Part shown: one piece after another, positions 3,469 through 39,155 of the stretch
How positions within the stretch are numbered: the first letter of the stretch is position 1
Layout of the letters: every line of letters starts with the position of its first letter
NCBI GenBank assembly: GCA_947467345.1
Contig: CANIHD010000007.1
Span: forward strand, 1-64,000
DNA from: Alphaproteobacteria bacterium
Lineage (GTDB): Bacteria; Pseudomonadota; Alphaproteobacteria; Micropepsales; Micropepsaceae
Length of the DNA stretch: 64,000 bases
Direction: 5' to 3'
Notes under the pieces: generated by a model
Told to the model about the DNA's origin: nothing
Seen by the model: only the letters and a program-made list of their open reading frames with translations
Database searches by the model: none
Made by a program: the position numbers and the translations under genes

Positions 3469-3546
3469 GGCCAATCTCCCAAAATGGTTCGTGAGCAAAT
3501 CATGCCATGAAAAACATACGGCTGTCGCGTGAGCCGGAAAAGGCGC

Positions 3547-4158: not shown

Positions 4159-4231
4159 GGCGGCTAGCAGCGACGATTCGAACAAGCCTTGCAAGCGTGA
4201 CAGACCGGCGCCGGATCACTAGATAACCCCT

Positions 4232-6034: not shown

Positions 6035-6038
6035 AATC

Positions 6039-7109: not shown

Positions 7110-7147
7110 GGCAATCCCCAGAGCAGCGCGTCGCTTTATCGGTAGGC

Positions 7148-13080: not shown

Positions 13081-13547
13081 ATTTGCGCGAATCTCGGAGC
13101 GGGCTTTTCGTCGGTTTAGGCATCATCGCGCTTGCAGCCGTTCTCGCCTGGCAAACAAGTCTTATCCCCAGCGAAGCTGCCTATGCCCAAGTTGGCCCCA
13201 CGGTGGTGCCGTGGCTTGTCACCGCGATGCTCGCGGTTCTCGGCGTGGCGTTGATATTTGAAACTTCCGGGGAACGCGACGCCGCCGAAGAGCCGCGCGG
13301 TGCTTTGGACCATCGCCCGCTGATGTGGGTGATTGCCGGTCTCGTCATCAATGTGACGACCATCACCTATCTCGGATTTATCATCGCCTCGACGGCATTG
13401 TTTGTGTGCGCCGCGCGTGGATTCGACAGCAAATCGCCCTTGCGCGATGCCGCGGTGGGCCTCGCCATCGCTGTAGTCGTCTATGTCGGATTCGACCGTG
13501 GCCTCGGCTACGAAATCGGCGACGGCCTGATCGAAAATCTCCTCTGA
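13077..13547 (+). CDS. tctB: TTT transporter small membrane subunit TctB (copy 1)
   Basis: A 156-residue membrane protein starting at a GTG that overlaps the tctC stop (GTGA). It has four hydrophobic segments (roughly residues 10-27, 42-60, 82-120 and 128-146), the normal topology for TctB. This family is poorly conserved, so identity rests on size, membrane pattern and position between tctC and tctA. Its last codon overlaps the ATG of tctA. Confidence 0.85.
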
Positions 13548-15040: not shown

Positions 15041-15052
15041 TTTGAGTTAGCT

Positions 15053-15095
15053 TTCGCACCGGCGGTTGGCGGGGGGCGTCTTCCGCCGGTGCGAA
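15053..15095. terminator. 13-bp perfect hairpin between convergent genes
   Basis: TTCGCACCGGCGG (15053-15065) and its exact complement (15083-15095) enclose a 17-base loop. The hairpin lies 13 nt after the tctA stop and before the end of the convergent kinase gene. There is no U-run on either side, so it may be a factor-dependent or mRNA-stabilising hairpin rather than a classical intrinsic terminator. Confidence 0.6.
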
Positions 15096-15250
15096 GCTCT
15101 GCTGGTGGAACAGCATGGTCAGGGATGACCCTGAGACCAGTCGGCGGTTCGTTCTGCCGAGTGCGGAACGCGACAAGGGGGAGCCCCGTCAGCACGTCCC
15201 ACCGACCGACAATCACAATAAACAAAAGCGCATCGGCCGGTACTTAAGTG

Positions 15251-15262
15251 ATGTTAAGTGAT
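15251..15262 (-). repeat. 12-base sequence shared by both flanks of the two-component genes
   Basis: ATGTTAAGTGAT here is the exact inverse of ATCACTTAACAT at 17479-17490, upstream of the response regulator gene. At this site TTAAGTGA occurs twice, 10 bases apart (15244-15261), overlapping the kinase stop codon. It could be a regulator-binding site facing the TTT operon or chance. Confidence 0.35.
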
Positions 15263-16594
15263 ATTGCGCGAGATCTTGCCATCGACGGGAAGAATGATGC
15301 GCGCAGCAAGTCCGCGCGGCATGTGTTCGAAGAGCTCTATCTTTCCGCCATGCGCGGCAATGAGATCGCGCGCAATGGAAAGTCCGATGCCGATGCCAAT
15401 CGGCGACAATGACGGGCAGAGCTGCTTGTCGCGTGAGGCAGGCGTGTCCGTGCCGCCATCGCTAACGCCGTTATCGGACACATCGATCTCTACGGGCTCT
15501 CCCGGTGGCGCATGCAGCGAGACAGTGAGTTTGGATCCGTATCGTGCCGTGCTTTCCAACACATTCGCCACTGCGCGCGAGAGGGAATGGGGCCGGCACG
15601 TATAGACGAAATGGCCGACGCCTTCGTAGCCGACCGCGCGGCCCTCATCGGAAAACTCCGCGCTGATGGTCTGCAACAGGCTGGGCAGATCGACCCGCTC
15701 GGCGCCCTCGGCCGCTCCGTTACCGCGTAGGAATTCCATCATGTCGGCTAAACGGTCGCCGGTTTTGCGCAAATCCGCCACTAGATATTCGCGTGCTGCG
15801 GATTCCGGCAGTCGTTCGCTCCGCAAAAGCGCCCGCGTCAGCGGCGTGCGTAGATCGTGGCTGATTCCCATCAGCATGGAGGTGCGCTCGTCCACCAAAT
15901 GCTGGATACGAAGCCGCATGTCGTTGAGCGCGCGCGCGGTTTGCGCGATTTCACGCGGGCCCCGCTCATTTAATGGCTGATTGTTCTTGAGCGTGCGGCC
16001 GAAATCATCCGCCGCCTCGGCGAAGGAGCGTAAAGGCGCGGTGATCCAGCGAACGGCATAAGCAGAAAGAACCAGCAGACTCAGCGTTGCGACGGTGAGC
16101 GTCGTCAAAGCTGGGCCATGCAATAGCGGCAAGGCTTCCGGCGAAGAAGGAATTCGAAAAACGAGCGCCTCCTCGGCGCCGCGATCGACGACGACGAATT
16201 CGCTGCCGCCATCATCCGGCTGCAACTTCAGCAGTTTAAGTCCGCGCTCGGCTGCCAATTTCTCGACGGCGCGTTTCAGAAAAGACGGCTCCTGCGGTAG
16301 CGACGGCGTGGCGACAAGCGACGACACGGAAGCATTCTCGACCCCAACGCCCATGGTTTTGGCACCGTCGAGAATATTCCAAAATTCATCGAGGGATTTG
16401 GCGCGGGTGAGAAGCTCGGCCAGCGTTACAATTTGCGCCGCGGCGCTTTCCGGGTGCGTGCCGCGTTCGTTGTGCCGGAACTGGTAGGTTGCAATCGCAA
16501 ATGTAAGCGCATTGCCAAGAAGCAGCGAGACAACGACAAGTCCGGTAATCTGCATCGCGACGGTGTTGGGGATCAACCGCCTCAACATGCTCAT
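15254..16594 (-). CDS. sensor histidine kinase with degenerate N and G1 boxes
   Basis: This 446-residue inner-membrane kinase has two transmembrane segments (about 13-35 and 162-182) around a periplasmic sensor region of some 125 residues, then a HAMP-like linker. The phosphorylation box is intact: GISHDLRTPLTR, with the histidine near residue 246. The ATP-binding part is odd. EnvZ-type kinases have NMVVNAARYG; here it is NVLESTARYG, so the second asparagine is Ser. The G1 box normally reads DxGxGI; here it is DNGVSDGG. The G2 glycines (GIGIGLSIARDL) are present. The gene overlaps the response regulator stop by 4 nt (ATGA). It may be a weak kinase that acts mainly as a phosphatase, and it likely controls the adjacent TTT operon. 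Confidence 0.85.
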   Translation of the reverse strand: MSMLRRLIPNTVAMQITGLVVVSLLLGNALTFAIATYQFRHNERGTHPESAAAQIVTLAELLTRAKSLDEFWNILDGAKTMGVGVENASVSSLVATPSLPQEPSFLKRAVEKLAAERGLKLLKLQPDDGGSEFVVVDRGAEEALVFRIPSSPEALPLLHGPALTTLTVATLSLLVLSAYAVRWITAPLRSFAEAADDFGRTLKNNQPLNERGPREIAQTARALNDMRLRIQHLVDERTSMLMGISHDLRTPLTRALLRSERLPESAAREYLVADLRKTGDRLADMMEFLRGNGAAEGAERVDLPSLLQTISAEFSDEGRAVGYEGVGHFVYTCRPHSLSRAVANVLESTARYGSKLTVSLHAPPGEPVEIDVSDNGVSDGGTDTPASRDKQLCPSLSPIGIGIGLSIARDLIAAHGGKIELFEHMPRGLAARIILPVDGKISRNIT

Positions 16595-22028: not shown

Positions 22029-22197
22029 CTGCTTCCTGACCCTCACGTGACCAGCGCGCCACTTGACCGGAAAGGGCCTTTGCAGGCGAATAGCGTGCGC
22101 TGAACGGGGCGGGGCAGGCAAGGCTTCTTTCATCGCTCCCCGATTCGTATTGCCCGACGCGAGCAGCAGCGCGACCAACCAGGACGACACACACCGC

Positions 22198-22845
22198 ATG
22201 AGTCAGAAACAGCCGCCGGCGACGAAGCAAACAGCGGCGATGAATCAGAAAGCTGCCACTTACTGGGCCTTTGCCATCGCAGGGTGGTCCGGCTTTTACG
22301 TCATGTTGGTCGAGCTTCTCAGCGGCCGGCTGATCGCCCCCTATTTCGGAAACAATATCTATATCTGGGGCTCGATTATTTTCATTTTCATGTTCGGCTT
22401 GGCGGTCGGATATCTCTTGGGCGGCATCTATTCGCGGCACAATCCCAGTGTGTCGCGCTTGGCGATGATTCTCTGGGTTTCGGCGGCGACGACGCTGCCG
22501 ACCGTGCTTTTGGGCGACCAGTTTCTCAGCTGGATGTTCGACCATTTGACGGATCCCCGTTATGGCTCGCTGGTCACCTGCGCCTTCCTGTATTTTCTCC
22601 CCACGATGTTCGCCGGTATGGTTTCGCCCTATGCCATCCGCATTATCGTTACGAACCGGGAATCAAGCGGCTACGACGCGGGTTATCTCTATTTCGTGTC
22701 GACCATCGGATCGAGCGCGGGAACGCTTCTCACCTCGTTCTTCCTGGTTCTGTGGTTTGAGGTGAACACCATCCTTTACGTCGCTATGTCCATCTCGTTT
22801 TTGCTTGGCGGTCTCGCAATGCTGGCGGAAAGAAAAAGACAATGA
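22198..22845 (+). CDS. membrane protein related to the membrane half of fused spermidine synthases
   Basis: This protein of about 215 residues has six or so hydrophobic segments, starting YWAFAIAGWSGFYVMLVELLSGRLIAPYFGNNIYIWGSIIF-type sequence (quoted only in part by family resemblance). Characteristic pieces are LSGRLIAPYFG, GLAVGYLLGG, FLPTMFAGMVSPYAIRI and YFVSTIGSSAGTL. These match the N-terminal membrane region of proteins in which a transporter-like part is fused to a spermidine-synthase domain. Here that domain is a separate gene starting 4 nt before this gene ends. The ATG at 22198 was chosen; a start at 22237 is possible. The two proteins probably form a complex. Function unknown. 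Confidence 0.75.
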   Translation: MSQKQPPATKQTAAMNQKAATYWAFAIAGWSGFYVMLVELLSGRLIAPYFGNNIYIWGSIIFIFMFGLAVGYLLGGIYSRHNPSVSRLAMILWVSAATTLPTVLLGDQFLSWMFDHLTDPRYGSLVTCAFLYFLPTMFAGMVSPYAIRIIVTNRESSGYDAGYLYFVSTIGSSAGTLLTSFFLVLWFEVNTILYVAMSISFLLGGLAMLAERKRQ

Positions 22846-23753
22846 ACATTCGCGCAATTTTGGGCACAGGCGCCCTTCTTGCTTTGACGGCGTTGGCGGT
22901 TCCGGCCGCAGCGGCGGAGCAACGCATCATCCATAAGGAGCGTTCGCTCTATCGTAACATCAGCGTGGCCGAGATGGGCGACGAGCGCTGCATGCTGTTC
23001 CGCGCGCGGCGCGGACTTGGCCGCGAATCCTGCATGCGGATTTCGGATCCGGACCATCTGGTGTTCGAATACGCCCCGATGATGTTGTCGTCGCTGTTCC
23101 TGAACCCACAGCCGCCGGCGCGTATTCTCATCATCGGGCAGGGCGGCGGAACGTTGCCCATGGCTTTGCAAAAAATGGCGCCCCAAGCCGCGATCGACGT
23201 GGTTGAAATCGATCCGGCGGTTGATCGTATCGCGCGGCGCTATTTCGGTTTTGTGCCCGGCCCGAAAACCAAGGTCTATATCGAAGATGGCCGCGTGTTC
23301 GTGAAGCGGGCGCAGCGCCAGGGTCAAAAATACGATCTCGTCATGCTCGACGCCTTCGAGGCGGACTATATCCCCGAGCATTTGCTGACTCAGGAATATT
23401 TGCAGGAAGTGAAGTCTATCATGGGGCCGAATGCTGCTTTGGCTTCGAACACGTTTTCTTCCAGCGCGCTCTACGACCACGAATCCACCACCTATGCCTC
23501 GGTGTTCGGTACTTTCTTCAATTTGAAGCTGGGCAATCGGATTATCCTCACGCGCCTCGGCACCCTGCCCAATGCGCAGGAAATTCGCACCAATGCGGCT
23601 GCCTATGATGCCGCGTTCCGCCGGCGCGGCGGCGACCCGACCTACATATTCACGCTGATGAGCACCGGTGCCGATTGGAACCGCACAGCGCGCATTCTCA
23701 CCGACCAATATTCCCCGTCAAACGTGCTCAACACGATGCCGCGCGGTAACTGA
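22842..23753 (+). CDS. exported spermidine-synthase-like protein
   Basis: The 303-residue protein carries a convincing signal peptide (MNIRAILGTGALLALTALAVPAAAA), followed by a Rossmann-type aminopropyltransferase-like domain. It has a glycine motif LIIGQGGGTLP (about 92-102), the acidic end of the next strand VVEIDPAVD, EDGRVFVKR, and LDAFEADYIPEHLLTQEYL. Cytoplasmic spermidine synthases have no signal peptide. Export implies a periplasmic SAM-like-fold protein, where decarboxylated SAM is not known to be available, so classical spermidine synthesis is unlikely. It overlaps the membrane-protein gene by 4 nt (ATGA), and so is translationally coupled to it. Confidence 0.78.
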   Translation: MNIRAILGTGALLALTALAVPAAAAEQRIIHKERSLYRNISVAEMGDERCMLFRARRGLGRESCMRISDPDHLVFEYAPMMLSSLFLNPQPPARILIIGQGGGTLPMALQKMAPQAAIDVVEIDPAVDRIARRYFGFVPGPKTKVYIEDGRVFVKRAQRQGQKYDLVMLDAFEADYIPEHLLTQEYLQEVKSIMGPNAALASNTFSSSALYDHESTTYASVFGTFFNLKLGNRIILTRLGTLPNAQEIRTNAAAYDAAFRRRGGDPTYIFTLMSTGADWNRTARILTDQYSPSNVLNTMPRGN

Positions 23754-27974: not shown

Positions 27975-28589
27975 GTGGCTGATAGCGATCAACTGAACCG
28001 TAACGGAGGTGCCGAAGGCGGCGCTGGTCCGGGACATAATAGCGGCGCCGCCGGCGAAGAGCCTGTGGTGTGGGAACGTTGGACGAAGAAACGCACCTTC
28101 GTCCGCGCTCTCGAAGGTACCTATGGCGAGCTCTACCAGGAGCTCTTCACGCAGCCGCGCGTCTACCGCTCCAAAGATTGGAAGTGGAAGGGCGGACCGC
28201 AGAATTTCGGTAAGAAGATCATCAACCCGGGCTCCGGCCGCGTCACCCAGTGCATCGAAGTGCATCTGGATTGCTTCGCGCCCGGCGGTTACGGCCAGCG
28301 TCACGGCCACATGAACAGCGCCGTGTTCTATGTCCTTAAGGGCAAGGGCCACGACATTCATGACCGCCGCCGCATCGACTGGGAAGCCGGCGATGCGCTC
28401 ATCGTCGAAAACGGTTGCGTGCATCAGCATTTGAACGACGACCCGAATGAAGAAGCGATCGTGCTTGTCGCCAAGGCGAAGCCGCTTTTCCTGTTCATGC
28501 ACCTGATCTTCCAGAAGGTCGCCATGTACCCGCCAACAGAGGCGCTGTCGGAAAAGCAACGCCTTTACGTTCCGCCGACGGAAATCTAA
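27975..28589 (+). CDS. cupin-domain protein A, split ring-cleavage-like
   Basis: This protein of about 204 residues starts at a GTG with GGGAGAA upstream. After an N-terminal part of some 100 residues (WTKKRTFVRALEGTYGELYQELF) it has a cupin barrel. Motif 1 reads QRHGHMNSAVFYVLKGKG, with two histidines but Ala where the usual glutamate would be. Motif 2 is WEAGDALIVENGCVHQH, with its histidine. A metal site with three histidines is therefore still possible. The C-terminus (FMHLIFQKVAMYPPTE) has no known counterpart. It precedes a second cupin gene by 104 nt. Together they resemble the two halves of a bicupin dioxygenase such as gentisate 1,2-dioxygenase, but this is inference. Confidence 0.75.
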   Translation: MADSDQLNRNGGAEGGAGPGHNSGAAGEEPVVWERWTKKRTFVRALEGTYGELYQELFTQPRVYRSKDWKWKGGPQNFGKKIINPGSGRVTQCIEVHLDCFAPGGYGQRHGHMNSAVFYVLKGKGHDIHDRRRIDWEAGDALIVENGCVHQHLNDDPNEEAIVLVAKAKPLFLFMHLIFQKVAMYPPTEALSEKQRLYVPPTEI

Positions 28590-28693
28590 CGCGCAAATTG
28601 GAACGGGGCGTGCGCCTCGTTCTACCCCGCGCCATCGTGAAATTCCGTGTCGGCCGCGAAGCGGCCGCCGCGATCTGAGCAGAGGAATTTGGA

Positions 28694-29251
28694 ATGAGCA
28701 GAGTTGTCGATCCGCGCGAACGCGAGGGTTCCCATGCCGACACCGGCTATGTGAATTTTTATGAGGAAGCATTGAAGGCGTCGGAAGAATTCCGCTCCGA
28801 CTATTTCAATCGCCTGAACGTGGTGAAGTCGGCGCAGATGCCGCTGGAGCGTTCACGCCATGGCTTGATCAAGCACATCATCAACGAGCGCATGAACACC
28901 AAGGAATGCTGCCTCGACATGTATATGCAATTTCTGCCGCCGGGTAAGGCGAGTGGAAAGCATCGCCATCTGTCCGAGGAAGTCATGTATGTGGTCGAAG
29001 GCACCGGCTACGATTTGCACTGGGACGTCCGCTTCGACTGCGACCATGAAATGGAATTCACTTGGGATGCGGAGCCGAAGAAGTACGAATGGTCGCAAGG
29101 CGATTTCATCTATGTCCCGCCTTATTGCGCACACAAGCATTTCAACAGCGATCCGAAGAACGAAGCTCGCATCATCGTCATCAATAGCCGCATTCTGAAA
29201 CCGATGGGCTTCGATTGGTACGAGCAGTTAGAGGACGCTGAAGGTTATTAA
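28694..29251 (+). CDS. cupin-domain protein B
   Basis: The 185-residue protein follows AGAGGAA at binding-site distance. The cupin motif 1 is complete: GKHRHLSEEVMYVVEGTGYDLHWD, with HxH and glutamate (about residues 90-96). Motif 2 is WSQGDFIYVPPYCAHKHFN. The mononuclear metal site (three His, one Glu) is thus intact, in contrast to cupin A. The N-terminal region contains SRHGLIKHIINERMNTKECCLDMYMQF, in pieces reminiscent of long-N-terminal cupins. No signal peptide. Both cupins lie directly ahead of the TTT transport genes and may process the transported compound. No substrate can be named. Confidence 0.78.
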   Translation: MSRVVDPREREGSHADTGYVNFYEEALKASEEFRSDYFNRLNVVKSAQMPLERSRHGLIKHIINERMNTKECCLDMYMQFLPPGKASGKHRHLSEEVMYVVEGTGYDLHWDVRFDCDHEMEFTWDAEPKKYEWSQGDFIYVPPYCAHKHFNSDPKNEARIIVINSRILKPMGFDWYEQLEDAEGY

Positions 29252-29384
29252 TTCGGTGCCGGTGTGAATGTCCCGGCAGCGCGTCCGCGCTGCCGTTAGG
29301 ACACCCTGCCGGGAGCAGAAGCGAAATGTCTCTGGCCACCCGCGCGGTATAAACCGCGCGGTGTCGGCGGAGGGAGAGCGCCGG

Positions 29385-30407
29385 ATGTCGAAGGCATTTC
29401 TGACGCTTTTGGCGGGCTTGGTGCTGTTGTTGTCAGCGCCGCCCGCAAGCGCTGCCGGTTCGCATGATCCGGATTTGTCGCTCTATAACGGCAAGACCAT
29501 CACCTACATTGTGGCGACCGGCCCGGGCGGCGGCTACGGCACCTATGCGCGGCTGATCGGCCGCTTCATGCAGAAGCATCTGCCCGGTTCACGCATTCTT
29601 GTTCGCAACGTCCCTGGCGCCGGACACATCGTCGGTGCCAACACGCTTTACGCGTCGCGTGGGGATGGTCTGACCATTGGCATGTTCAACACCGGGCTGA
29701 TTTACGATCAGCTTTTGAAACGCCAGGGGGCGAAGTTCGACCTTTCCAAAATGAGTTGGATTGGCAGCGCGGCGCATGATGTTCGGGTTCTGGTCCTCTC
29801 CAAGCGTTCCGGCTATGGCAGTTTTCAGGAACTCTATGAGTCCAAAAAGCCGTTCAAATTGGCGGCCGCCGGCATCGGTTCCGCCGCTTACAACGACACG
29901 CGGATTGTTGCTGCTACACTGCAGCTCCCGATCCAGATCATTACGGGCTTTAATGGCACTGAAGGCGAATTAAGCATGATGCGCCGTGAGGTCATCGCCC
30001 AGCTCGGCGCGGCCAGCTCATTCGAGAATTTTGTTAGGACCGGTAATGGGTTCTACGCACTTGCCGTCAGTGGTGACACACGAGCAATCCCTGGTGTTCC
30101 GCAGGCACGTACTTACGTCAAAGATGCGCGCGGCGGACAATTGCTCGGTCTGATCGAGGCGCTTTCGGATCTGTGACGCCTGACGGCCGGCCCGCCCGGA
30201 ATTCCGCCGCAATTGCTGGCTACCCTTCGGGAGGCCCATCGTTTGGCCTTAACCGATCCGGCGCTGCTTGCCGAAGCCAAGAAGATCAAACTGCCTATCG
30301 ATGTTGCCATCGGGGAAGAGGTTGAAGCCGAGATCCGGACAGCCTTAGCCCAGCCCCCAGCAGCCATTAAGTTGTTGCGGCAAGCGACCTCGGTTGATAC
30401 GCATTGA
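29385..30407 (+). pseudogene. tctC: tctC copy with an in-frame stop
   Basis: This gene encodes a TctC-type binding protein with signal peptide (MSKAFLTLLAGLVLLLSAPPASA), preceded by GGAGGGAGAG. It is closely related to its downstream neighbour: they share TITYIVATGPGGGY and LPGSRILVRNVPGAGHI. After SDL the codon TGA (30174-30176) replaces the glycine codon found in the neighbour (SDLGRLT). The remaining 77 codons continue in the same frame, RLTAGPPGIP to the true stop at 30407, with no further damage. The binding-loop aspartate (YDTY in the intact copy) is Gly here (YGTY). A single recent nonsense mutation in an already diverging duplicate is the simplest reading. Confidence 0.82.
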
Positions 30408-30474
30408 GCCGACAGGCAATGATAATTTCCCGCCAAGCAAAGCCGGGCGTGCCCCTGTGGAGGAGACGAGAATC

Positions 30475-31482
30475 TTGAATCGATTTTTGACGATGGTTGC
30501 CGGCGCCGCCATGGCGCTCGTGGTCGCGGGCCCTGCCTCCGCTGCCGCCGATGCCAACTATTATAAAGGCAAGACCATCACCTATATCGTCGCGACCGGC
30601 CCCGGCGGCGGCTACGACACTTATGGCCGTTTGATCGCGCGCTTCATGCAGAAGCAATTGCCGGGCTCGCGCATTCTGGTTCGCAACGTTCCGGGTGCAG
30701 GCCACATCATCGGCGCCAATACGATCTACGCGGCGCGTCCCGATGGCTTGACCATCGGCATGTTCAACACAGGGTTGATCTACAACCAGCTGATGTCGCT
30801 GCCGGGCGTGAAGTTCGACCTCACCAAGATGAGCTGGATCGGCAAGGCCTCGAACGAAATCCGCGTCGTGGTTGTGTCGACTAAGTCTGGTTACAAGACC
30901 ATCGACGACATGCTGAAGGCGAAAGGCCCGGTTCGTTTCGCGGCCGCCGGCGTCGGCTCCGCAGCCTATCTCGATACACGCATTCTCGACTTCATGTTGC
31001 CTATCGATATCCAGACCGTATCGGGCTTCGACGGCGCCGAAGGCGAACTCAGCATGATGCGCGGCGAAGTGGTTGCCCAAGTCGGCATCGCCAGCTCGTT
31101 CGAACAATTCGTGAGGAACAAGAACGGTTTCTACGCCCTGGCGATGAGCCCGGCCGCGCACGCTATTCTGCCCAACGTTCCGCAAGCCGACGCTTATGTA
31201 CATGACGAAAAGTCCCGGAAGCTGCTGACGCTTCTTGAAGCGCTCTCCGACCTTGGCCGTTTGACCTCGGGCCCGCCGGGCATTCCCGCCGATGTGCTCG
31301 CCGTTTTGCGCGAGGCACATTTGAAGGCCGTTCAGGATCCCGCGTTGCTCGTGGAAGCCAAGAAGCTGGCGATCCCGATCGATTTCGGTACGGCTGATTT
31401 TGTGACTCGCCGCATTAAAGAGGCGCTCAACCAGACGCCGGAAACGATTGCACTTCTGAAGCAAGCCGCAGCGGCACAATAG
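30475..31482 (+). CDS. tctC: TTT transporter periplasmic binding protein TctC (copy 2, intact)
   Basis: A 335-residue protein starting at a TTG with GGAGGAG upstream. It has a signal peptide (LNRFLTMVAGAAMALVVAGPASA) and the Bug/TctC ligand loop ATGPGGGYDTYGR, with the conserved aspartate, followed by NVPGAGHIIGANTIYAARPDG. It would catch a carboxylate in the periplasm and hand it to the TctA/TctB permease encoded 60 nt downstream. It is the functional partner of the broken duplicate just upstream. An ATG at 30493 is an alternative start but would shorten the signal peptide. Confidence 0.88.
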   Translation: MNRFLTMVAGAAMALVVAGPASAAADANYYKGKTITYIVATGPGGGYDTYGRLIARFMQKQLPGSRILVRNVPGAGHIIGANTIYAARPDGLTIGMFNTGLIYNQLMSLPGVKFDLTKMSWIGKASNEIRVVVVSTKSGYKTIDDMLKAKGPVRFAAAGVGSAAYLDTRILDFMLPIDIQTVSGFDGAEGELSMMRGEVVAQVGIASSFEQFVRNKNGFYALAMSPAAHAILPNVPQADAYVHDEKSRKLLTLLEALSDLGRLTSGPPGIPADVLAVLREAHLKAVQDPALLVEAKKLAIPIDFGTADFVTRRIKEALNQTPETIALLKQAAAAQ

Positions 31483-31541
31483 ATCACAGCGTACGGGAGG
31501 GGTTGCGCGCGCAGCCCCTCCGCGTTTAGGGGGATCGCGCA

Positions 31542-33044
31542 ATGGATGCCGCTGTAGCTTTTTCTGCCTTAGTCGGGCTTGTGACCACGCCTTACATCGT
31601 CTTCCTCATGTTGGTGGGCGTGCTGGTTGGTATTTTCATGGGCATTGCCCCCGGCGTGGGCGGCAAGCTCGGGCTCGTGCTGCTGATCCCGTTCGTTTAC
31701 GGCATGGATCCGCTGGCCGGCGCCGTCTTCCTTCTGTCCATGCATGCGGTGGTGCACACCGCAGGCGCGGTGACCTCCATTTTGCTCGGTGTTCCAGGGG
31801 AAGGCGCCACCGCGGCAACGGTGCTCGACGGTTACGCCATGACCAAACGAGGCGAGGCGGGGCGGGCCCTCGGCGCCAGTTTCGGTGCTTCGCTGGCGGG
31901 TAGCACGTCGGGCGCCATCGTCCTCGGCGCGTCGCTCGGCCTGCTCGAACCCATCATCCTAAACTTTCATCCGTCCGAATTTTTCCTGCTTTCGCTCCTC
32001 GGCATCACCTTCATCGCCACGCTTAGCGGCAAGAGCGTCGTAAAAGGCCTTAGCGTCGGCTTCTTCGGCCTCATGGTGTCCTTCATTGGCCAGGACCCCT
32101 CGACCGGCATTGCACGCTTCACCGGTGGGCACCTCTTCCTCTTGGACGGCGTGGACATCATCACCGCCATCCTGGCGATGTTCGCCATTCCGGAAATGAT
32201 CTCGCTGGGCGTCGAGCGCCAGGCGCTGGCCTCCGGCGTCGCGCAGCGGCAACGCATTGACTACCGACAGGTCATTCAGGGTCTGGGAGACGTCGTCACC
32301 CATCGCTGGCTGGTTTTGCGGGTGTCCCTCCTCGTGGCGGCCATCGGCATCATTCCGGGCCTCGGCGGCGACGCGGCGTCCTGGATGGCGTACGGCCATA
32401 CCGTCCAATCCTCGAAAAACCCCGAGACGTTCGGCACCGGCCGCGTCGAAGGCGTGATCGGTGCCGAAACCGGCACCTGCGCCAAAGAAGGCGGCTCGCT
32501 TATTCCGACCCTTTTCTTCGGCGTGCCGGGTTCCTCGGGTATGGCGATCATGCTCGGCGCCTTCCTGATGCTCGGTCTGCAGCCCGGCCCGCAGATGCTC
32601 ACCGAGCATCTGGACGTGGTCTGGGCGCTGATTTGGTCGCTGGCCCTCGCAAATCTGTTGTGCGTCGGCATTCTCCTGGTTGCGGCGCCGTGGATCACCA
32701 ACATCGCCTATATCAAGACCAGCCTGATGGTTCCGATCGTGCTCGTCTTCGCCATCCTCGGGTCCTATATCGGACAGGGCCACTGGGAAAATCTCATCCT
32801 CATCTTCTTCATGGGCGGGTTCGGATATTTCTTGAAGCGCCATGACTGGCCGCGCGCGCCGTTCGTGATCGGCGTCATCCTGGGAAAGATCGCCGAGGAT
32901 GCGCTGCTCAAGGCGCTGGCGATCGATGGCTATTGGTTCTTCATGAAGCCGATTTCTCTCATCTTGATCGCCATGATCATCGGCAGCATCGGCTTCTGGT
33001 TCTACAAGATGCGAACCGGCAAAGTGGAGATCGCCCATGGTTGA
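31542..33044 (+). CDS. tctA: TTT transporter large membrane subunit TctA (copy 2)
   Basis: The 500-residue permease has two homologous halves of about six membrane segments each. Their motifs are GIAPGVGGKLGLVLLIP near residue 35 and GIIPGLGGDAASWMAYGH near 270. Other signatures are GVPGEGATAATVLDGY and EGVIGAETGTCAKEGGSLIPTLFFGVPGSSG, given in pieces. It is complete and serves as the reference for the broken copy at 34182. It overlaps tctB by 8 nt. Confidence 0.92.
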   Translation: MDAAVAFSALVGLVTTPYIVFLMLVGVLVGIFMGIAPGVGGKLGLVLLIPFVYGMDPLAGAVFLLSMHAVVHTAGAVTSILLGVPGEGATAATVLDGYAMTKRGEAGRALGASFGASLAGSTSGAIVLGASLGLLEPIILNFHPSEFFLLSLLGITFIATLSGKSVVKGLSVGFFGLMVSFIGQDPSTGIARFTGGHLFLLDGVDIITAILAMFAIPEMISLGVERQALASGVAQRQRIDYRQVIQGLGDVVTHRWLVLRVSLLVAAIGIIPGLGGDAASWMAYGHTVQSSKNPETFGTGRVEGVIGAETGTCAKEGGSLIPTLFFGVPGSSGMAIMLGAFLMLGLQPGPQMLTEHLDVVWALIWSLALANLLCVGILLVAAPWITNIAYIKTSLMVPIVLVFAILGSYIGQGHWENLILIFFMGGFGYFLKRHDWPRAPFVIGVILGKIAEDALLKALAIDGYWFFMKPISLILIAMIIGSIGFWFYKMRTGKVEIAHG

Positions 33045-33474
33045 CGGTCGTATTCTCACCGCCGGTATCATGTTCGCGATTTTCGCGACCTTTGTCGGCG
33101 TATCGTTCGCCTATCCAGTTGAAGCGCGCTTCACGCCGCTCGTCATCGGTATCCCGGGGCTCATTCTTTCGCTCATTCAGCTTATCTCCGAATTACGCAA
33201 CAAGACGGCGCGGGTGATCGGATCGGAAGAGCGCAGCCGCGAATACCGGATGTTCGGATGGTTCGCGTTCTTCATTGGGGGCATCATTCTGTTCGGGTTC
33301 CCCTATGCAGGGCCGGTCGTGGTCGCCGCTTACCTGCATTTTTCCTGGCATGAGAAATGGTACACGTCCCTGGGCGCCGCGTTCTTCTCCTGGGTCGTTC
33401 TCCATTATCTGTTCGGAGACATACTCGGACTTCCCCTGTTCGAGGGGCTTATCATTGAATGGCTCACCTACTGA
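33037..33474 (+). CDS. tctB: TTT transporter small membrane subunit TctB (copy 2)
   Basis: A 145-residue membrane protein with four hydrophobic segments (about 5-26, 30-46, 70-98 and 105-138). It starts within the end of tctA with GTGGAGA upstream. The internal phrase RFTPLVIGIPGLILSLIQL is shared almost exactly with the TctB at 35683, so the two cassettes are duplicates. It is the last gene of an intact tctC-tctA-tctB set (note the order CAB, versus CBA in copy 1). Confidence 0.88.
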   Translation: MVDGRILTAGIMFAIFATFVGVSFAYPVEARFTPLVIGIPGLILSLIQLISELRNKTARVIGSEERSREYRMFGWFAFFIGGIILFGFPYAGPVVVAAYLHFSWHEKWYTSLGAAFFSWVVLHYLFGDILGLPLFEGLIIEWLTY

Positions 33475-33488
33475 GCATGGAGTGAAAT

Positions 33489-33884
33489 ATGTGCGGCGAA
33501 CTGGAAGAAGAAGACACACGCCAGCAGGATATTTACGGCCGTTTTCAAGCCCACGCCCATTCCTTCCTGGCGGCGATGAAAAACAAACAGAGCGGCGATT
33601 CCGTGAACGCCTATCTGGACGGTCTCTTTCGCGAACTTCTGCTGAAGGCTGCCGATCACAACGAGGCGCCGGCCGATGTCGATGTCTATGAGCGCTTTGC
33701 CATGGAGCCGTTGGTGTTCGCGCGGCTTGCCGGTTTCATGGCGGCGCATATGCCGCTCAACACCGATCCCTTGCGCTCGCTCATCGATGCGCTGATGACC
33801 GGCTATTCCGAGGGCGAAATTTTGCTTCCCTCGCACGACCATGATCACGACCATGAGCATGGACAGGGACATCATCATCATTAA
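33489..33884 (+). CDS. small protein with histidine-rich tail
   Basis: This 131-residue, soluble, acidic protein begins only 14 nt after tctB with GGAGTGAAAT upstream, so it is probably in the same operon. The body is predicted helical (FLAAMKNKQSGDSVNAYLDGLF, quoted in part; FARLAGFMAAHM; LRSLIDALMTGY). It ends in SHDHDHDHEHGQGHHHH (about 115-131), a strong metal-binding tail of the kind found in nickel/zinc-handling chaperones. The body does not match any family I know. A role as metal chaperone for the metal-dependent cupins is a testable guess. Confidence 0.75.
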   Translation: MCGELEEEDTRQQDIYGRFQAHAHSFLAAMKNKQSGDSVNAYLDGLFRELLLKAADHNEAPADVDVYERFAMEPLVFARLAGFMAAHMPLNTDPLRSLIDALMTGYSEGEILLPSHDHDHDHEHGQGHHHH

Positions 33885-34181
33885 CGAATGCGCAGCATTC
33901 CACGCATGACTCGCGGGAATGTGAAGTTGCAAGGTTTTGGTTAGAGTCGCGCAATGTGCGACTTCGCATGCGGCGGCGCGTCGCAAATCATTCTCCGTCA
34001 TCTGCAGAAATTGCAGCTCTTACAGCGCGTATTCGAAGCTCGCGCATTTGTGAGTCAAAATTAAACGTGCTCGTCCCAGGGTTGAGTCTCGCGAACTCGT
34101 GACTCCGAGTGCACATCGGCCAGCGTAAGAAGCGTCAATGGCGGGATCACTCCCGCCATTTCTTATGTTTGTGATCGACGC
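33885..34181. other. intergenic stretch between the two TTT cassettes
   Basis: No gene or tctC remnant is recognisable, although a tctC would be expected before the second tctA. A short hairpin GTCGC/GCGAC lies at 33946-33962, and a stronger hairpin at 34137-34160 is listed separately. The sequence is less GC-rich than its surroundings. Confidence 0.5.
34137..34164 (+). terminator. terminator-like hairpin
   Basis: AATGGCGGGA (34137-34146), loop TCAC, then the exact complement TCCCGCCATT (34151-34160), followed by TCTT and a T-rich stretch. A 10-bp perfect stem with a 4-base loop would be stable. It lies 18 nt before the ATG of the broken tctA, so it separates that cassette from the genes upstream. 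Confidence 0.65.
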
Positions 34182-35693
34182 ATGCATATCGATGTTGCCG
34201 CTTCGACTTTGTTTTAACTTCTGACGGATCCGCAGCTTGTCTTCCTGATGGTCCTCGCAATTCCGATTGGCGCGTTTTTCGGCGCGCTGCCCGGACTTGG
34301 TGGCAAGCTTGGTATCGTTCTGCTTCTGCCTTTCGTGTTCGGCATGGAGCCCATTCCAGGCGCGGTGTTTCTGCTCGCGATGCATTCGGTGGTTCACACC
34401 GGCGGTTCAATTCCTTCCATTCTCTTCGGTGTTCCGGGTGACGGTCCCACCGCTGCGACGGTGCTTGATGGTTATGCACTCGCGAAAAAAGGGCGGGCGG
34501 GACGCGCACTGGGCGCCAGTTTCGCCGCATCCGGAATCGGCGGACTGATTGGTGCGGTGTTTCTCGGGCTCATGCTGCCGCTGCTCGAACCCGTCATTCT
34601 CGCGTTCAGCCCGGCCGAATTCTTCCTCGTCGCCATTCTCGGCATCACCTTCATCGCGGTGCTTTCCGGCGACTCGCTGATGAAAGGTCTCTCGGTCGGC
34701 ATGTTCGGATTGATGCTCGCTTTTGTCGGCCTCGATCCGACCACCGGCGGCGAGCGCTACACATTCGGACAATTGTTCCTGTGGGATGGGCTCGACATCA
34801 TCACCGCCGTGCTCGCGATGTTCGCGATTCCTGAAATGATCGCGCTCGGCGTTCGGCGCGAAGCGCTCGCTCCGATCACGCCCGGCGCGAAATTGAAAAT
34901 CGATGGGCGCTAAGTGTGGGACGGCGTCCTTGATGTGTTCCGCCATTGGGGCCTGACCGTTCGCACCTCGCTGTTCGGTGCGGTGGTCGGTCTTTGCCCC
35001 GGTCTCGGCGGCGATGCGGCGTCATGGCTCTGCTACGGTCACGCGCAGCAATCTTCCAAAACGCCAGAACTTTTCGGAAAGGGCGCAGTTGAGGGCGTCA
35101 TCGCGCCGGAAACGGCGAACAACTCCAAAGAAGGTGGCTCGCTCGTTCCGACGCTGTTGTTCGGCGTGCCAGGTTCCTCCGGTATGGCCATTCTTCTCGG
35201 CGCGTTTCTAACGCTCGGTATTCAGCCCGGCCCCACGATCATCAACGACAACCTGCCGCTGGTGTGGTCGCTTATCTGGGCTCTTGCGGTCGCCAATGTG
35301 TTGTGCGCGATCGTGTTGATCTTCGCCGCGCCATGGCTTTCCGCGCTCGCCTATATGAAGGCGAGCTTGATGCTTCCGTTCGTGCTGGTGCTGGCGCTAC
35401 TTGGCTGTTTCCTCGCGGCCGGCGCGTGGGAAAATCTGCTGCTTTTGGTCGTGCTAGGCGGCATCGGCTACATGCTGAAGCGGCATCATTGGCCGCGCCC
35501 GCCTTTCGTTATCGGCGTGATCCTGGGACCGATTGCCGGGGATTCCTTGCTGAAATCTCTGGCCATCGGCGGCCCCGCCTATTTCCTGCGTCCCATCTCG
35601 CTCGTGCTGATGTTCATGATCTTCGCGAGCATCGCTTTCTACATTTGGCGTTCGCGTAAACCGAGAACTTTGGTGCTGATCGATGAGCATTGA
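34182..35693 (+). pseudogene. tctA: tctA copy 3 with two in-frame stops (two half-proteins possible)
   Basis: The frame from ATG 34182 to 35693 aligns with intact TctA (copy 2) throughout. It starts MHIDVAASTLF-stop-LLTDPQLVFLM against MDAAVAFSALVGLVTTPYIVFLM of the intact copy. The first stop is TAA at 34215. The second, TAA at 34911-34913, lies where the intact copy has Gln in the loop between the two homologous halves. A GTG follows the second stop directly and in frame, and an ATG lies at 34248 in helix 1. Two half-size permeases, each with its own PGLGG motif, could therefore still be translated. Everything else is undamaged. Simple decay remains the more cautious reading. Confidence 0.75.
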
Positions 35694-36123
35694 CGGAAGA
35701 CTATTTACCTCCGGCATGATGGTGACGATTTTCGCCGCCATGGTGCTGATGGCCCTAACCTTCGCGCCCGGTGCGCGCACGTTGCCGCTGGTTATCGGCA
35801 TCCCCGGACTGATTGTGACGTTGATTCAGTTCGTGGCGGAGCTGCGCGAGAAGAACCCGGAGAAGATCGACGAGGAAACGCGTCGGCGGGAAATCTCCAT
35901 GTTCGGCTGGTTCGTCTTGTTCACTCCCGGCATTTTGCTGTTCGGCTTCATCTATGCTGGGCCGTTGCTGCTGGCGTTGTATTTGCGAGTGTCGTGGAAG
36001 GAGAGCTGGCTCACCATCGGCATTTCCGCGGTGCTGCTATGGGCTATCCTCGATGGCATCTTCCAACGCGCGCTTGGCCTCGCCGTTTTCGAGGGCCTTA
36101 TCACCCAGTTGATCCTCTACTGA
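35683..36123 (+). CDS. tctB: TTT transporter small membrane subunit TctB (copy 3)
   Basis: This 146-residue, four-helix membrane protein begins within the end of the tctA pseudogene. It shares RTLPLVIGIPGLIVTLIQF and the C-terminal FEGLITQLILY with the TctB of copy 2, showing duplication of the cassette. The frame is intact although its tctA is damaged. That could mean the damage is recent or that the halves still function. Confidence 0.85.
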   Translation: MSIDGRLFTSGMMVTIFAAMVLMALTFAPGARTLPLVIGIPGLIVTLIQFVAELREKNPEKIDEETRRREISMFGWFVLFTPGILLFGFIYAGPLLLALYLRVSWKESWLTIGISAVLLWAILDGIFQRALGLAVFEGLITQLILY

Positions 36124-36426
36124 GTACGTGGCGCGGCTTGAGAGCGCCCGAAAACCGTTTAATTTCGACGTCTTGCACGATTTATTGCTATGCAGCGTGA
36201 TGTAGTCCTACAGGGGCGGAAAGTCGCGCCCCAGAGGCGCCTGAAACCCCTGGACAGGGGCGAAAGTGCTGCCTATAGCCTGTCCACAAAATGGGGCCCA
36301 AAAAGCGTTTTCGCTTTGAGCGCCGCTGAGATTTCTGATCCTCAGTGGTGATCGCATGAACCACCCCAAGGTTCGGTCATAAATTTGCGCTGCGGCATGG
36401 GCCGCAGCCGCGCATGGGAGATTTTT
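36124..36426. other. structured leader region before the ThDP enzyme gene
   Basis: No gene is supported. The region is rich in inverted repeats: GGGGCG/CGCCCC (36213-36232), GGACAGG/CCTGTCC (36252-36285), AAAGCG/CGCTTT (36302-36317), CTGAG/CTCAG near 36326-36345, and GCGGC/GCCGC near 36391-36406. Together they could form a structured mRNA leader controlling the next gene. No known riboswitch is recognised. Confidence 0.45.
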
Positions 36427-38211
36427 ATGGAAAAGAAAAAAACAGAAAAGACGGTTCGCGACAGACCGCTGCCGAAGCTCGGCTGGCAATCTGACGTCAT
36501 CGCCGATCTGATCAAACTCTACGATTTTCCTTACATCCCGCTGAATCCTGGCGCGTCGTATCGCGGCCTGCATGACAGCCTGGTGAATCACAACGACAAC
36601 AACCCGCCGATGATGGTGTGTCAGCACGAGAAGATCGCGGTGCAGATCGGCCATGGCTACGCCAAGGCTTGCGGCGAACCTCTCGCCGTCATCGTGCATA
36701 ACGTCGTCGGATTGCTGCATTCGGTCATGGGAGTTTATTACGCTTATATCGATCGCTGCCCGATCTTCATCATCGGCGCCACTGGCCCGATGGACGAAAA
36801 GAAGCGCCGTCCGCGCGTTGACTGGGATCACACCGCCAACGTGCAAGGCACTGCAGTGCGCGATTTCGTGAAATGGGATTATCAGCCGGGCGGCATTCAC
36901 GGCGTGCCCGACAGTTTTGCGCGCGCGTATTCGGTGATGATGACGCAGCCGCAAGGCCCGATCTACATGTGCTACGATGCGTGGCTGCAGGAAGCCGAGC
37001 TGGAAGAGCCGGTCGTGCTGCCGCCCAAGACGCAGCAACGCTCGCCGTCGAAATTCGCACCCGATCAGACCGCGCTCGGCAAAATCGCCGATCGTCTTGT
37101 CGAGGCCGATTGGCCGGTGCTGATGCCGCAATATGTCGGACGCGTAGAGTCCGGCATGTCGGACATGGTGGCTTTGGCTGAAACGCTTGGTGCGCCAGTT
37201 TCCGACGTGCAGTCGCGTCTCAACTTCCCGACCAATCATCCACTCGACTGCCGCCTGAATCCGAAAATCTTCAACGACGCGGATGTCATCCTCACGCTCG
37301 ACTGCCGCGACTGGGAAGGCCGCACGCATAAGAACGACCGCGTCAACCGCACGATGACGCCGCATTACCCGGAAAAATGCGATTGGCTCGACATCGGCTT
37401 CGCCGACATCGACATTTCGAAATGGGCGATGGGCTACCAGAAGTTCCCGCCGGCCTCGCAGCGTGTTCTGGCCGACACCGAACTGGCCATCCCACTGCTC
37501 ACGCAGATGCTGAAAGACCGCATCGGTAAAGATTCGAAATTGGCGAAGGGGGTTAAAGAGCGCGCCGCCGCCGTGAAAGAAATTCACGACAAGCAACGCG
37601 CCAAATGGGCGGAAGAGGCCAAGGCCGCTTGGGACCTCAGCCCGATTTCGCTGCCGCGCCTTGCCGCTGAAGTCTTCAGCGTCATCAAGAACGAAGACTG
37701 GGTCATCACCACCAACGCGTTCGAAGATTGGGCGATCAAGACCTGGGACATCGACAAGGGCTATCGTTGGCCGGGTAAGGCGCTCGGGACCGGTACACAA
37801 ATCGGTATCGGCCTCGGCGTTGCGCTCGCGCATCGCGGCAAAGGCCGCCTGGTTGTGGACTGCCAGACGGACGGCGATCTGATGTTCGACGTCGGCGCGC
37901 TCTGGACCGCCACCAAGCACAACATTCCGATGCTCGCGGTCATGCATAACAACCGCGCCTACTATAATGACTGGGAGCACCAGATCACCATCGCGGAACA
38001 GCGTGGCACGGACGTGAACAAGGCCCATATCGGCATGGACATTTTCGGACCGAACGTGGACTTCGCGTCGATCGCGCGTGGCTTCGGCTGGTATGCCGAA
38101 GGTCCGATCGAGGATCCCAAGGAAATCGCCGGTGCCGTGCGCCGCGCGATGGAAAAAGTGAAGCAGGGCATTCCGGCGCTGGTCGATACCATCACCCAGC
38201 ACGAAGGCTAA
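36427..38211 (+). CDS. thiamine-diphosphate-dependent enzyme (acetolactate synthase superfamily)
   Basis: A protein of about 594 residues with the three-domain build of ThDP enzymes. The cofactor-activating glutamate is in VCQHEKIAVQIGHGYAKA (Glu68). The second domain spans about 195-330. The ThDP/Mg motif is TDGDLMFDVGALWTATKHN...HNN (about 480-510). Having this glutamate excludes glyoxylate carboligase, which lacks it. The sequence MDEKKRRPRVDWDHTANVQG and the loop HNNRAYYNDWEHQ are shared with a poorly studied group often annotated simply as ThDP-requiring enzymes. Substrate unknown; probably a 2-keto acid. GGGAGA precedes the ATG. It probably works with the beta-hydroxyacid dehydrogenase just downstream. 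Confidence 0.85.
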   Translation: MEKKKTEKTVRDRPLPKLGWQSDVIADLIKLYDFPYIPLNPGASYRGLHDSLVNHNDNNPPMMVCQHEKIAVQIGHGYAKACGEPLAVIVHNVVGLLHSVMGVYYAYIDRCPIFIIGATGPMDEKKRRPRVDWDHTANVQGTAVRDFVKWDYQPGGIHGVPDSFARAYSVMMTQPQGPIYMCYDAWLQEAELEEPVVLPPKTQQRSPSKFAPDQTALGKIADRLVEADWPVLMPQYVGRVESGMSDMVALAETLGAPVSDVQSRLNFPTNHPLDCRLNPKIFNDADVILTLDCRDWEGRTHKNDRVNRTMTPHYPEKCDWLDIGFADIDISKWAMGYQKFPPASQRVLADTELAIPLLTQMLKDRIGKDSKLAKGVKERAAAVKEIHDKQRAKWAEEAKAAWDLSPISLPRLAAEVFSVIKNEDWVITTNAFEDWAIKTWDIDKGYRWPGKALGTGTQIGIGLGVALAHRGKGRLVVDCQTDGDLMFDVGALWTATKHNIPMLAVMHNNRAYYNDWEHQITIAEQRGTDVNKAHIGMDIFGPNVDFASIARGFGWYAEGPIEDPKEIAGAVRRAMEKVKQGIPALVDTITQHEG

Positions 38212-38236
38212 AATCCCGTGTTGGGATATTAAGATC

Positions 38237-38276
38237 AACGGCACCGTACGCCATGCGTTCGGTGCCGTTTCTTTTT
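38237..38276 (+). terminator. intrinsic terminator after the ThDP enzyme gene
   Basis: AACGGCACCG (38237-38246) pairs perfectly with CGGTGCCGTT (38260-38269) across a 13-base loop. TCTTTTTG follows. The T-run and 10-bp GC-rich stem make this the clearest intrinsic terminator in the window. The next gene begins 19 nt later, so it is either partly attenuated or has its own promoter. Confidence 0.8.
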
Positions 38277-38294
38277 GAACGGAAAGGACATGTC

Positions 38295-39155
38295 ATGAAA
38301 GTCGCAGTCATCGGTATCGGCGAAATGGGTTTCCCGATGGCCGGATTTTTGAAAAAGGCCGGCCACGACGTTGCGGTGTTCGACATCGATTCTAGCCGCA
38401 TGGCGACGGCCGCGGAGCATGGCTTTGAGATTGCGGCGAACCTGAAGGAGCTTGCCGGCAAGGCGGAGATTTTCATCGCCGTCGTCAACACCGATCAGCA
38501 ATCTATCGATGTCACGGAAGTCATCTCCGCGAACGCGGCCAAGGGTTCGATCATCGTCATTTCGGCGACGAACAATCCTTTGACCATGCGCGACCTCGGC
38601 AAGCTCTGCGCCACTCGCGGCATCGGCTTCATCGATTCACCGGTCGTGTATGGCGCCTCGGGCGCCAAGAAGGGCACGCTGCTTTGCCTGGTGGGCGGCG
38701 AAACGGATGTGATCGAAAAAGCGCGCCCGGTTCTTATGGCGTATAGCCGCGATGTCATGCATGTCGGTCCGATCGGTTCGGGCCAACTTGCCAAGGCCTG
38801 CAACAACCTTCTGCACTGGGTGCATTGCGTTTCCAACTACGAGACGCTGCTGCTAGCCAAGCGCTGGGGCATCGACGCCCAGCGCATGCGCGAAGTGCTG
38901 CTGAAATGCCCGGCCTATAACGGCACACTCGACCGCTGGGACACCACCAAGTTCACTTGGCAGGAAAAGGACATGGACGTGACCATGGATCTTGCGCAGC
39001 TGGCAGGCCTGATGCTGCCGATGGCGGGTCTCACGGATCAGCTGGTGAAGACCCTCAAGGCGAAGAATGTGAGCGAGCTGCTTTACGGCGCGGAGTGCGA
39101 TTACATGGGCGTTCACGTGATGCCCCTGACGGCGGAAGAGGGCGGCTTGGCTTAA
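38295..39155 (+). CDS. NAD(P)-dependent beta-hydroxyacid dehydrogenase family protein
   Basis: This protein of 286 residues belongs to the 3-hydroxyisobutyrate/tartronate-semialdehyde reductase family. It has the nucleotide-binding start MKVAVIGIGEMGFPMAGFL, the substrate motif FIDSPVVYGASGAKKGTL and the catalytic lysine in GSGQLAKACNNLL. The length is normal. GAAAGGA precedes the ATG. Pairing of a ThDP carboligase-type enzyme with such a reductase recalls gcl-glxR (glyoxylate to glycerate), but the ThDP partner here is of a different type. The two may therefore run an analogous route for another aldehyde/keto acid. Confidence 0.85.
   Translation: MKVAVIGIGEMGFPMAGFLKKAGHDVAVFDIDSSRMATAAEHGFEIAANLKELAGKAEIFIAVVNTDQQSIDVTEVISANAAKGSIIVISATNNPLTMRDLGKLCATRGIGFIDSPVVYGASGAKKGTLLCLVGGETDVIEKARPVLMAYSRDVMHVGPIGSGQLAKACNNLLHWVHCVSNYETLLLAKRWGIDAQRMREVLLKCPAYNGTLDRWDTTKFTWQEKDMDVTMDLAQLAGLMLPMAGLTDQLVKTLKAKNVSELLYGAECDYMGVHVMPLTAEEGGLA

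Follow-up and report, generated by a model that had tools for sequence, protein, structure and literature searches.

Within the window (the whole 64,000-nucleotide stretch of DNA that was analysed), a freshwater-type alphaproteobacterium carries genes for two cupins (cup1 and cup2), a tripartite tricarboxylate transporter (TTT), a small His-tailed protein (HisT), a ThDP enzyme and a beta-hydroxyacid dehydrogenase (HIB) at 27975–39155, all on the + strand. These are the parts and the one-strand layout described in the initial annotation, and they raise the question of whether the genes serve one pathway and, if so, which acid it consumes. Large − strand open reading frames overlapping the block genes are taken as antisense shadows, and no Rfam RNA families were found in the window. 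The features are as follows.

27975–28589, +, cup1, monocupin of 204 aa (Cupin_2, 1.9e-11)
28694–29251, +, cup2, monocupin of 185 aa and paralogue of cup1 (Cupin_2, 9e-11)
29385–30407, +, TctC copy a, substrate-binding protein, pseudogene with an in-frame TGA at 30174–30176
30475–31482, +, TctC copy b (TctCb), substrate-binding protein, intact (PF03401, 5.5e-14)
31542–33044, +, TctA1, TTT large membrane subunit (PF01970, 3.8e-117)
33037–33474, +, TctB1, small membrane subunit, overlapping TctA1 (PF07331, 4.6e-10)
33489–33884, +, HisT, small His-tailed protein, no Pfam or NCBIfam family
34137–34160, +, terminator-like hairpin, 10-bp stem followed by a T-rich tail (−16.5 kcal/mol)
34221–35696, +, TctA copy 2, pseudogene with a TAA at 34911–34913 and a second stop at the 5′ end
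35683–36123, +, TctB copy 2, intact ORF (PF07331, 3.5e-9)
36427–38211, +, ThDP enzyme, decarboxylase/lyase superfamily (TPP_enzyme_N/C)
38295–39155, +, HIB, beta-hydroxyacid dehydrogenase (HIBADH-like; NAD_binding_2, 1e-34)

In genus relatives the operon has eight genes in the order cup1-cup2-TctC-TctA-TctB-HisT-ThDP-HIB, and loci L017 and L018 contain the same eight genes in this order with gaps of ~65 bp or less. Because this order is retained, and because cup1, cup2, TctCb, TctA1, ThDP and HIB are under purifying selection relative to the genus relatives (dN/dS ~0.1–0.24; 0.12–0.17 for cup1 and 0.10–0.14 for cup2), the block is more than a chance arrangement. Of the 20 genomes that encode this ThDP enzyme, 16 have the cup1 family, which is absent from all 347 other Proteobacteria compared (Fisher p ~1e-24), and a background survey of 348 random genomes for ThDP and cup1 gave matches in the source genome alone. 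A search for the same set in other genomes, with absence of co-occurrence as the refuting outcome, had been proposed at the outset; co-occurrence was found.

Of the 80 loci retrieved, many truncated, 18 hold ThDP, HIB, cup1 and cup2 together as a core, and they include Betaproteobacteria, Acidobacteria and Acidimicrobiia MAGs. In Betaproteobacteria, where the cup1-cup2 pair is often directly 3′ of ThDP-HIB, and in some other classes the core is accompanied by other transporters, such that the transporter type varies (TTT, ABC with a periplasmic binding protein, or small permeases) around a constant set of enzymes. This exchange of transporters points to uptake plus metabolism, and the proposal of a functional block for carboxylate uptake and metabolism is borne out by the order and strand kept across the genus and by the core co-occurring in several classes. 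The ThDP enzyme occurs without cup1 in four Rhizobiaceae-type genomes, and many ThDP relatives (e.g. L030–L034, L047, L065) have neither HIB nor cup1 nearby; the ThDP step thus does not strictly depend on the cupins. No match to cup1 was found on plasmids.

Two TTT cassettes are represented in the block. The intact one has the full receptor and the large and small membrane subunits of tripartite tricarboxylate transporters (TctCAB, Bug receptors), with scores above the Pfam gathering thresholds for TctA (391.9 vs 28.9 bits), TctB (40.2 vs 29.1) and TctC (52.8 vs 27), and TctCb is 82% identical to its L018 counterpart. Unlike in those transporters, there is a second cassette that is decaying: the TGA at 30174–30176 interrupts an otherwise open frame in TctC copy a, which has an intact counterpart in L016, and both TctC copy a and TctA copy 2 are ~62% identical to the intact copies. 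The stop codons together with this identity indicate an old duplicate.

The hairpin at 34137–34160 sits in the gap between HisT and TctA copy 2. A terminator scan found 8 sites overall vs 13.6 in shuffled sequence, and this 10-bp hairpin alone stands out, for its length and its location in an intergenic gap; a promoter scan found fewer sites than in shuffles and is uninformative for this organism. The hairpin and the decaying TTT insertion probably split the block here into cup1 to HisT and ThDP-HIB transcription units, whereas in L017 and L018 the genes form a single tight operon. The hairpin, the insertion and the 336- and 303-bp gaps within the block could also indicate separate operons that are neighbours only by coincidence, but this is very improbable and already contradicted by the compact gene order of L017 and L018 and by the co-occurrence in 16 of 20 vs 0 of 347 genomes.

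The two cupins have different predicted metal sites. The cup1 family has a conserved HGHxNxA...CVHQH site, with Ala where the Glu ligand is usual, whereas cup2 has a canonical 3-His/Glu site (HRHxxEE...HKHFN). Gentisate-type dioxygenases have a 3-His metal site without the Glu ligand, and cup1 has this type of site (HxH...Ala...H); the best PDB sequence match of both cupins is the gentisate dioxygenase 3bu7 (~1e-9). Neither classifies as a gentisate 1,2-dioxygenase or a related 3-His bicupin of the 5-aminosalicylate type, however, as the cupins score 19–30 bits against cut-offs of 442–650 (19.4 vs 442.1 for cup1 with TIGR02272), and cup1 (204 aa) and cup2 (185 aa) each have one domain and a gene of their own. 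We also considered that they are split halves of a gentisate dioxygenase; this is disfavoured, since profile comparison pairs cup1 with cup2 (99.7%), and each is closer to the other than to the halves of the gentisate-dioxygenase-like bicupin encoded in the same genome.

An alternative role for the cupins, as small-molecule sensors or transporter accessories with ThDP-HIB as the pathway proper, would account for cup1-cup2 often adjoining TTT or ABC transporter genes, including away from ThDP (L069, L077, L086, L121, L123), and for ThDP-bearing Rhizobiaceae-type genomes that lack cup1. We regard it as unlikely, given that metal-ligand residues are conserved in both cupin families, that the domain search found no DNA-binding domain, and that the pair often directly follows ThDP-HIB in Betaproteobacteria.

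The ThDP enzyme belongs to the ThDP-dependent decarboxylase/lyase superfamily (PF02776, 9e-15; PF02775, 5e-17), in which, judged by its sequence, it is a divergent decarboxylase/lyase-type family. Glu68, D482-G483-D484 and N508-N509 are invariant in the family (Glu68 in 25 sequences), corresponding to the catalytic Glu and the DGD...NN cofactor motif, and His91 is at the position of benzoylformate decarboxylase His70. The predicted model is nearest to benzoylformate-decarboxylase-type structures (Z 36.4–35, rmsd 2.6–2.9, ~500 aligned residues), although the top fold matches tie with others to within 1, and the active-site His position is also aligned in the profile match to 4q9d. The apparent likeness covers fold, tied with others, and the positions of His70 and the catalytic Glu, whereas the enzyme is ~20% identical to the benzoylformate decarboxylase type and ~60 residues longer, has a family-specific RRPxxDWxH...KWDxQP block, and scores 122.4 bits against a cut-off of 493 (NF005485). 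A family of ThDP enzymes bearing Tat-type signals was also seen, most of them with c-type cytochrome genes after them.

HIB has the N-terminal GxGxMG dinucleotide fold (GIGEMG) and the catalytic Lys in GxxxK..NN (GQLAKACNN) that define the beta-hydroxyacid dehydrogenase superfamily (PF03446, 1e-34; PF14833, 1e-13). The catalytic Lys is retained, and VYG stands in place of the SGG motif that binds the substrate. HIB scores well under the cut-offs for tartronate semialdehyde reductase (GlxR; TIGR01505, 131 vs 340.75 bits) and 3-hydroxyisobutyrate dehydrogenase (TIGR01692, 151.4 vs 291.6). A ThDP C-C enzyme adjoining a beta-hydroxyacid dehydrogenase recalls gcl-glxR, as the initial annotation remarked, but the resemblance is a loose analogy at most. 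In glyoxylate carboligase (Gcl) the catalytic Glu is replaced by Val; the ThDP enzyme keeps Glu68 and reaches 52 bits where the cut-off is 791 (NF008431). The bit scores, the catalytic Glu and the changed substrate motif rule out gcl-glxR membership, and the block differs further in having cupin and transporter genes as frequent partners.

The same adjacency underlies a second view of the substrate, that the operon acts on a small aliphatic hydroxy-, oxo- or sulfo-carboxylate through a gcl-glxR-like ThDP carboligase or decarboxylase and an aldehyde reductase; the cupins would then be isomerases, lyases or sulfur dioxygenases. Tartronate semialdehyde and 3-sulfolactaldehyde reductases are among the structures closest to HIB, and a Na_sulph_symp/CitMHS-type carboxylate transporter is downstream in L017, both in keeping with this view. 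It is possible but doubtful, as the ThDP enzyme is far from glyoxylate carboligase, HIB has an altered substrate motif, cup1 has a ring-cleaver-type 3-His site, and aromatic neighbours are enriched.

Aromatic-type genes are present in 19 of 46 long loci, and UbiD is near 4 of 20 loci where 0.52 are expected (P 0.002). Other such neighbours include a UbiX-type flavoprotein, LigX-type Rieske, protocatechuate 3,4-dioxygenase, Amidohydro_2 and RraA; genes for the last two and an alcohol dehydrogenase adjoin ThDP-HIB in Phyllobacterium and cup1-cup2 in Marinobacter. The window's genome encodes 5 UbiD and a protocatechuate 4,5-cleavage cluster (LigA, LigB, LigJ-type amidohydrolase, LigK). No aromatic genes were found within the window block, those elsewhere are near a minority of loci only, and the co-localisation may reflect catabolic islands generally. 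Given the neighbouring genes and the cleavage cluster, our best guess is a route for an aromatic acid; of the 'aromatic or hydroxy acids' first suggested, aromatics gain support, from neighbouring genes only.

The reading we favour, tentatively, is that a conserved operon serves the catabolism of a single carboxylic acid, which is most likely either aromatic or the product of cleaving an aromatic acid's ring. The genes, motifs, order, purifying selection and co-occurrence were observed, and we infer the pathway steps as follows. The TctCb/TctA1/TctB1 transporter would import the acid, and the cup1/cup2 pair would be a metal oxygenase, probably Fe(II), in which cup1 supplies the 3-His site typical of gentisate-type ring-cleaving dioxygenases and cup2 is the 3-His/Glu partner. 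The ThDP enzyme would then decarboxylate or cleave the product, a 2-oxo acid, and HIB would convert between the aldehyde so formed and the alcohol, in a position adjacent to a carboxylate. HisT has an invariant MCG start, a FARLAG core and a His-rich tail that may supply or buffer metal for the cupins; its predicted four-helix model is of low confidence (pLDDT 56 from 8 sequences) and too weak for a fold search.

More specifically, and with rather low confidence, this could be an aerobic aromatic-acid route without prior description: a cup1-cup2 hetero-oligomeric oxygenase would yield a 2-oxo acid for a new ThDP decarboxylase/lyase family, the aldehyde would pass to a likewise new subfamily of beta-hydroxyacid dehydrogenases, and HisT would be the route's own metal protein. 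Each part is of a familiar kind, and the combined gene set is conserved yet uncharacterised; no described pathway combining it was found in the open-access literature searched, and within that scope the earlier statement to this effect held. Four or five poorly named families, at present annotated as 'cupin', 'thiamine pyrophosphate-binding protein' and 'NAD(P)-dependent oxidoreductase', are thereby grouped into one testable pathway across several bacterial classes. The hosts are lake, soil and root-nodule bacteria, and solving one member would aid the annotation of all.

The block is as follows, all genes lying on the + strand over 11 kb.

27975-39155, + strand: cup1, cup2, TctC copy a, TctC copy b, TctA1, TctB1, HisT, TctA copy 2, TctB copy 2, ThDP, HIB
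34137-34160: terminator-like hairpin (stem of 10 bp) separating HisT from TctA copy 2
36427-38211, + strand: ThDP, the ThDP enzyme
38295-39155, + strand: HIB, the beta-hydroxyacid dehydrogenase

The gene inventory of the initial annotation is right, with all of the named parts present on one strand: two monocupins (cup1, cup2), the tripartite tricarboxylate transporter (TTT) genes, a small His-tailed protein of 131 aa (HisT), ThDP and HIB. The window covers the initial 64 kb of contig C7; the genome has a size of 2.49 Mb and is 96% complete. The closest gene sets are those of genus mates matching uncultured Alphaproteobacteria (several from lakes) and of one Micropepsaceae MAG. In two genus relatives (L017 and L018) the order is cup1-cup2-TctC-TctA-TctB-HisT-ThDP-HIB with gaps of ~65 bp or less, and the window layout corresponds to this operon, with HisT and ThDP separated by a decaying TctA-TctB copy. 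TctC copy a is interrupted by one TGA, the frame being otherwise open with 62% identity to copy b, and its counterpart is intact in a related operon (L016) where no TctA was found; TctA copy 2 has a TAA mid-gene and a second at its 5' end. Because of these stops we regard the second TTT cassette as an old duplicate in decay. The earlier proposal of a single unit fits the tight operon order in the relatives, but the hairpin and the decaying TTT copy indicate that the block in this genome is probably split into two transcription units. Some 4 kb upstream of the block (22063-23753) a gene for a small membrane protein is paired with a spermidine-synthase-like gene; in L017, L018 and L020 this pair is directly downstream of HIB.

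Co-occurrence elsewhere, which the initial annotation had set as a test, was found beyond the genus. Of 212 ThDP relatives 80 loci were retained; 24 have both cupins and 18 have HIB with both cupins, many loci being truncated by contig ends. Betaproteobacteria, and some MAGs of Acidobacteria or Acidimicrobiia, have the order ThDP-HIB-cup1-cup2, often with an ABC transporter replacing TTT. At the genome level cup1 is present in 16 of 20 ThDP-bearing genomes versus none of 347 other Proteobacteria sampled, a plain contrast for which the p-value (~1e-24) is a guide only, as the 20 are non-independent draws, some chosen for long loci. The dN/dS values of ~0.1-0.24 for cup1, cup2, TctC copy b, TctA1, ThDP and HIB, rough because synonymous sites are far diverged, correspond to purifying selection.

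The cupins are paralogues of one another. The cup1 site has HGH, an Ala at the position of the usual cupin Glu ligand, and then CVHQH, which is the gentisate-dioxygenase pattern; cup2 has a full 3-His/Glu site (HRHxxEE and HxHFN). An assignment of either as a gentisate dioxygenase is ruled out by the defining architecture of those enzymes. Elsewhere in this genome (G000:C3:145116-146403, L122:9116-10402) there is another cup1-cup2 pair, 60% and 50% identical, which has no adjoining transporter or ThDP gene. Two further proteins, a bicupin of ~379 aa and one resembling EutA (PF06277), are repeatedly encoded close to ThDP or cupin genes across many genomes (L021, L023, L027, L036, L073, L088, L121, L123 and others). 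HisT has an invariant MCG start, a FARLAG core and a His-rich tail, is also present in Marinobacter and another alphaproteobacterium, and may act in metal supply; a CobW-type metal GTPase is near the cupins in L118 and, judged by sequence, L119.

ThDP has N and C TPP domains, an invariant catalytic Glu68 and a DGD...NN motif, and reaches no cut-off among NCBIfam models. The nearest folds to its predicted model (pLDDT 85) are M. smegmatis 4q9d and benzoylformate decarboxylases, with tied scores (Z 36.4-35, rmsd 2.6-2.9), and by profile match the invariant His91 aligns with the active-site His (His70) of the benzoylformate decarboxylase-type group. HIB retains the superfamily features and catalytic Lys; since the SGG substrate motif is replaced by VYG in the window protein and by CRG in betaproteobacterial members, its substrate is probably other than 3-hydroxyisobutyrate or tartronate semialdehyde.

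The initial annotation had likened the block to gcl-glxR (glyoxylate carboligase and tartronate semialdehyde reductase), a pathway to which it does not belong, and we found no described pathway with the combined gene set in the open-access literature, a weak negative. The transporter type varies (TTT, ABC, small permeases) around a constant enzyme core, as would be typical of a catabolic module, and the block looks to work like a small-acid catabolic operon. Of 46 long loci, 19 have flanking aromatic-type genes (UbiD, UbiX-type flavoprotein, LigX-type Rieske oxygenase, protocatechuate 3,4-dioxygenase, Amidohydro_2, RraA), with UbiD enriched (4 loci observed versus 0.52 expected from how often it occurs in those genomes, P 0.002). 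Amidohydro_2, RraA and alcohol dehydrogenase genes adjoin ThDP-HIB in Phyllobacterium zundukense and cup1-cup2 in Marinobacter algicola, which links the two parts of the set to the same type of pathway. The organism itself very likely degrades aromatics, because its genome encodes protocatechuate 4,5-dioxygenase (LigA, LigB), a LigJ-type amidohydrolase, LigK, five UbiD and a gentisate-dioxygenase-like bicupin scoring below the equivalog cut-off. Our best guess for the operon substrate, from gene content, is an aromatic acid or its ring-cleavage product. The protocatechuate 4,5-cleavage genes (LigA, LigB, LigJ-type, LigK) cluster at G000:C22:22700-28600, and four of the UbiD genes at G000:C24:11900-28300.

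This small genome has TctA at seven places. One is a TctC-TctA pair (window 12103-16594) adjoining a HAMP/HATPase sensor kinase on the opposite strand. A second module, related to the block (G000:C7:97515-106500; L010:13515-19600, L011:742-2499), contains TctA, TctC, a ThDP (54% identical), a dehydrogenase (35%) and a further ThDP enzyme (34%).

More distant ThDP paralogues in the same genome and genus (34-38% identical to that of the window) have Tat-type signal-like N-termini, with RRxFL and a hydrophobic stretch.

G000:C1:118118-125311 (L013:118-2178, 2815-4800, 5290-7311): Tat-type ThDP paralogues
G000:C2 (L014:14675-16705): Tat-type ThDP paralogue
L097, L105, L108, L110, L111, L114: further loci with Tat-type ThDP paralogues

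In most cases the gene directly after it encodes a small c-type cytochrome (CxxCH, Cytochrome_CBB3), and a Caballeronia plasmid also carries an annotated pair of this kind; a single search of the open-access literature found no report of an exported ThDP enzyme/cytochrome c pair. The Tat-like signals and adjoining cytochrome genes suggest exported enzymes that would pass electrons to cytochrome c, and these pairs, although outside the original finding, may be the more surprising item.
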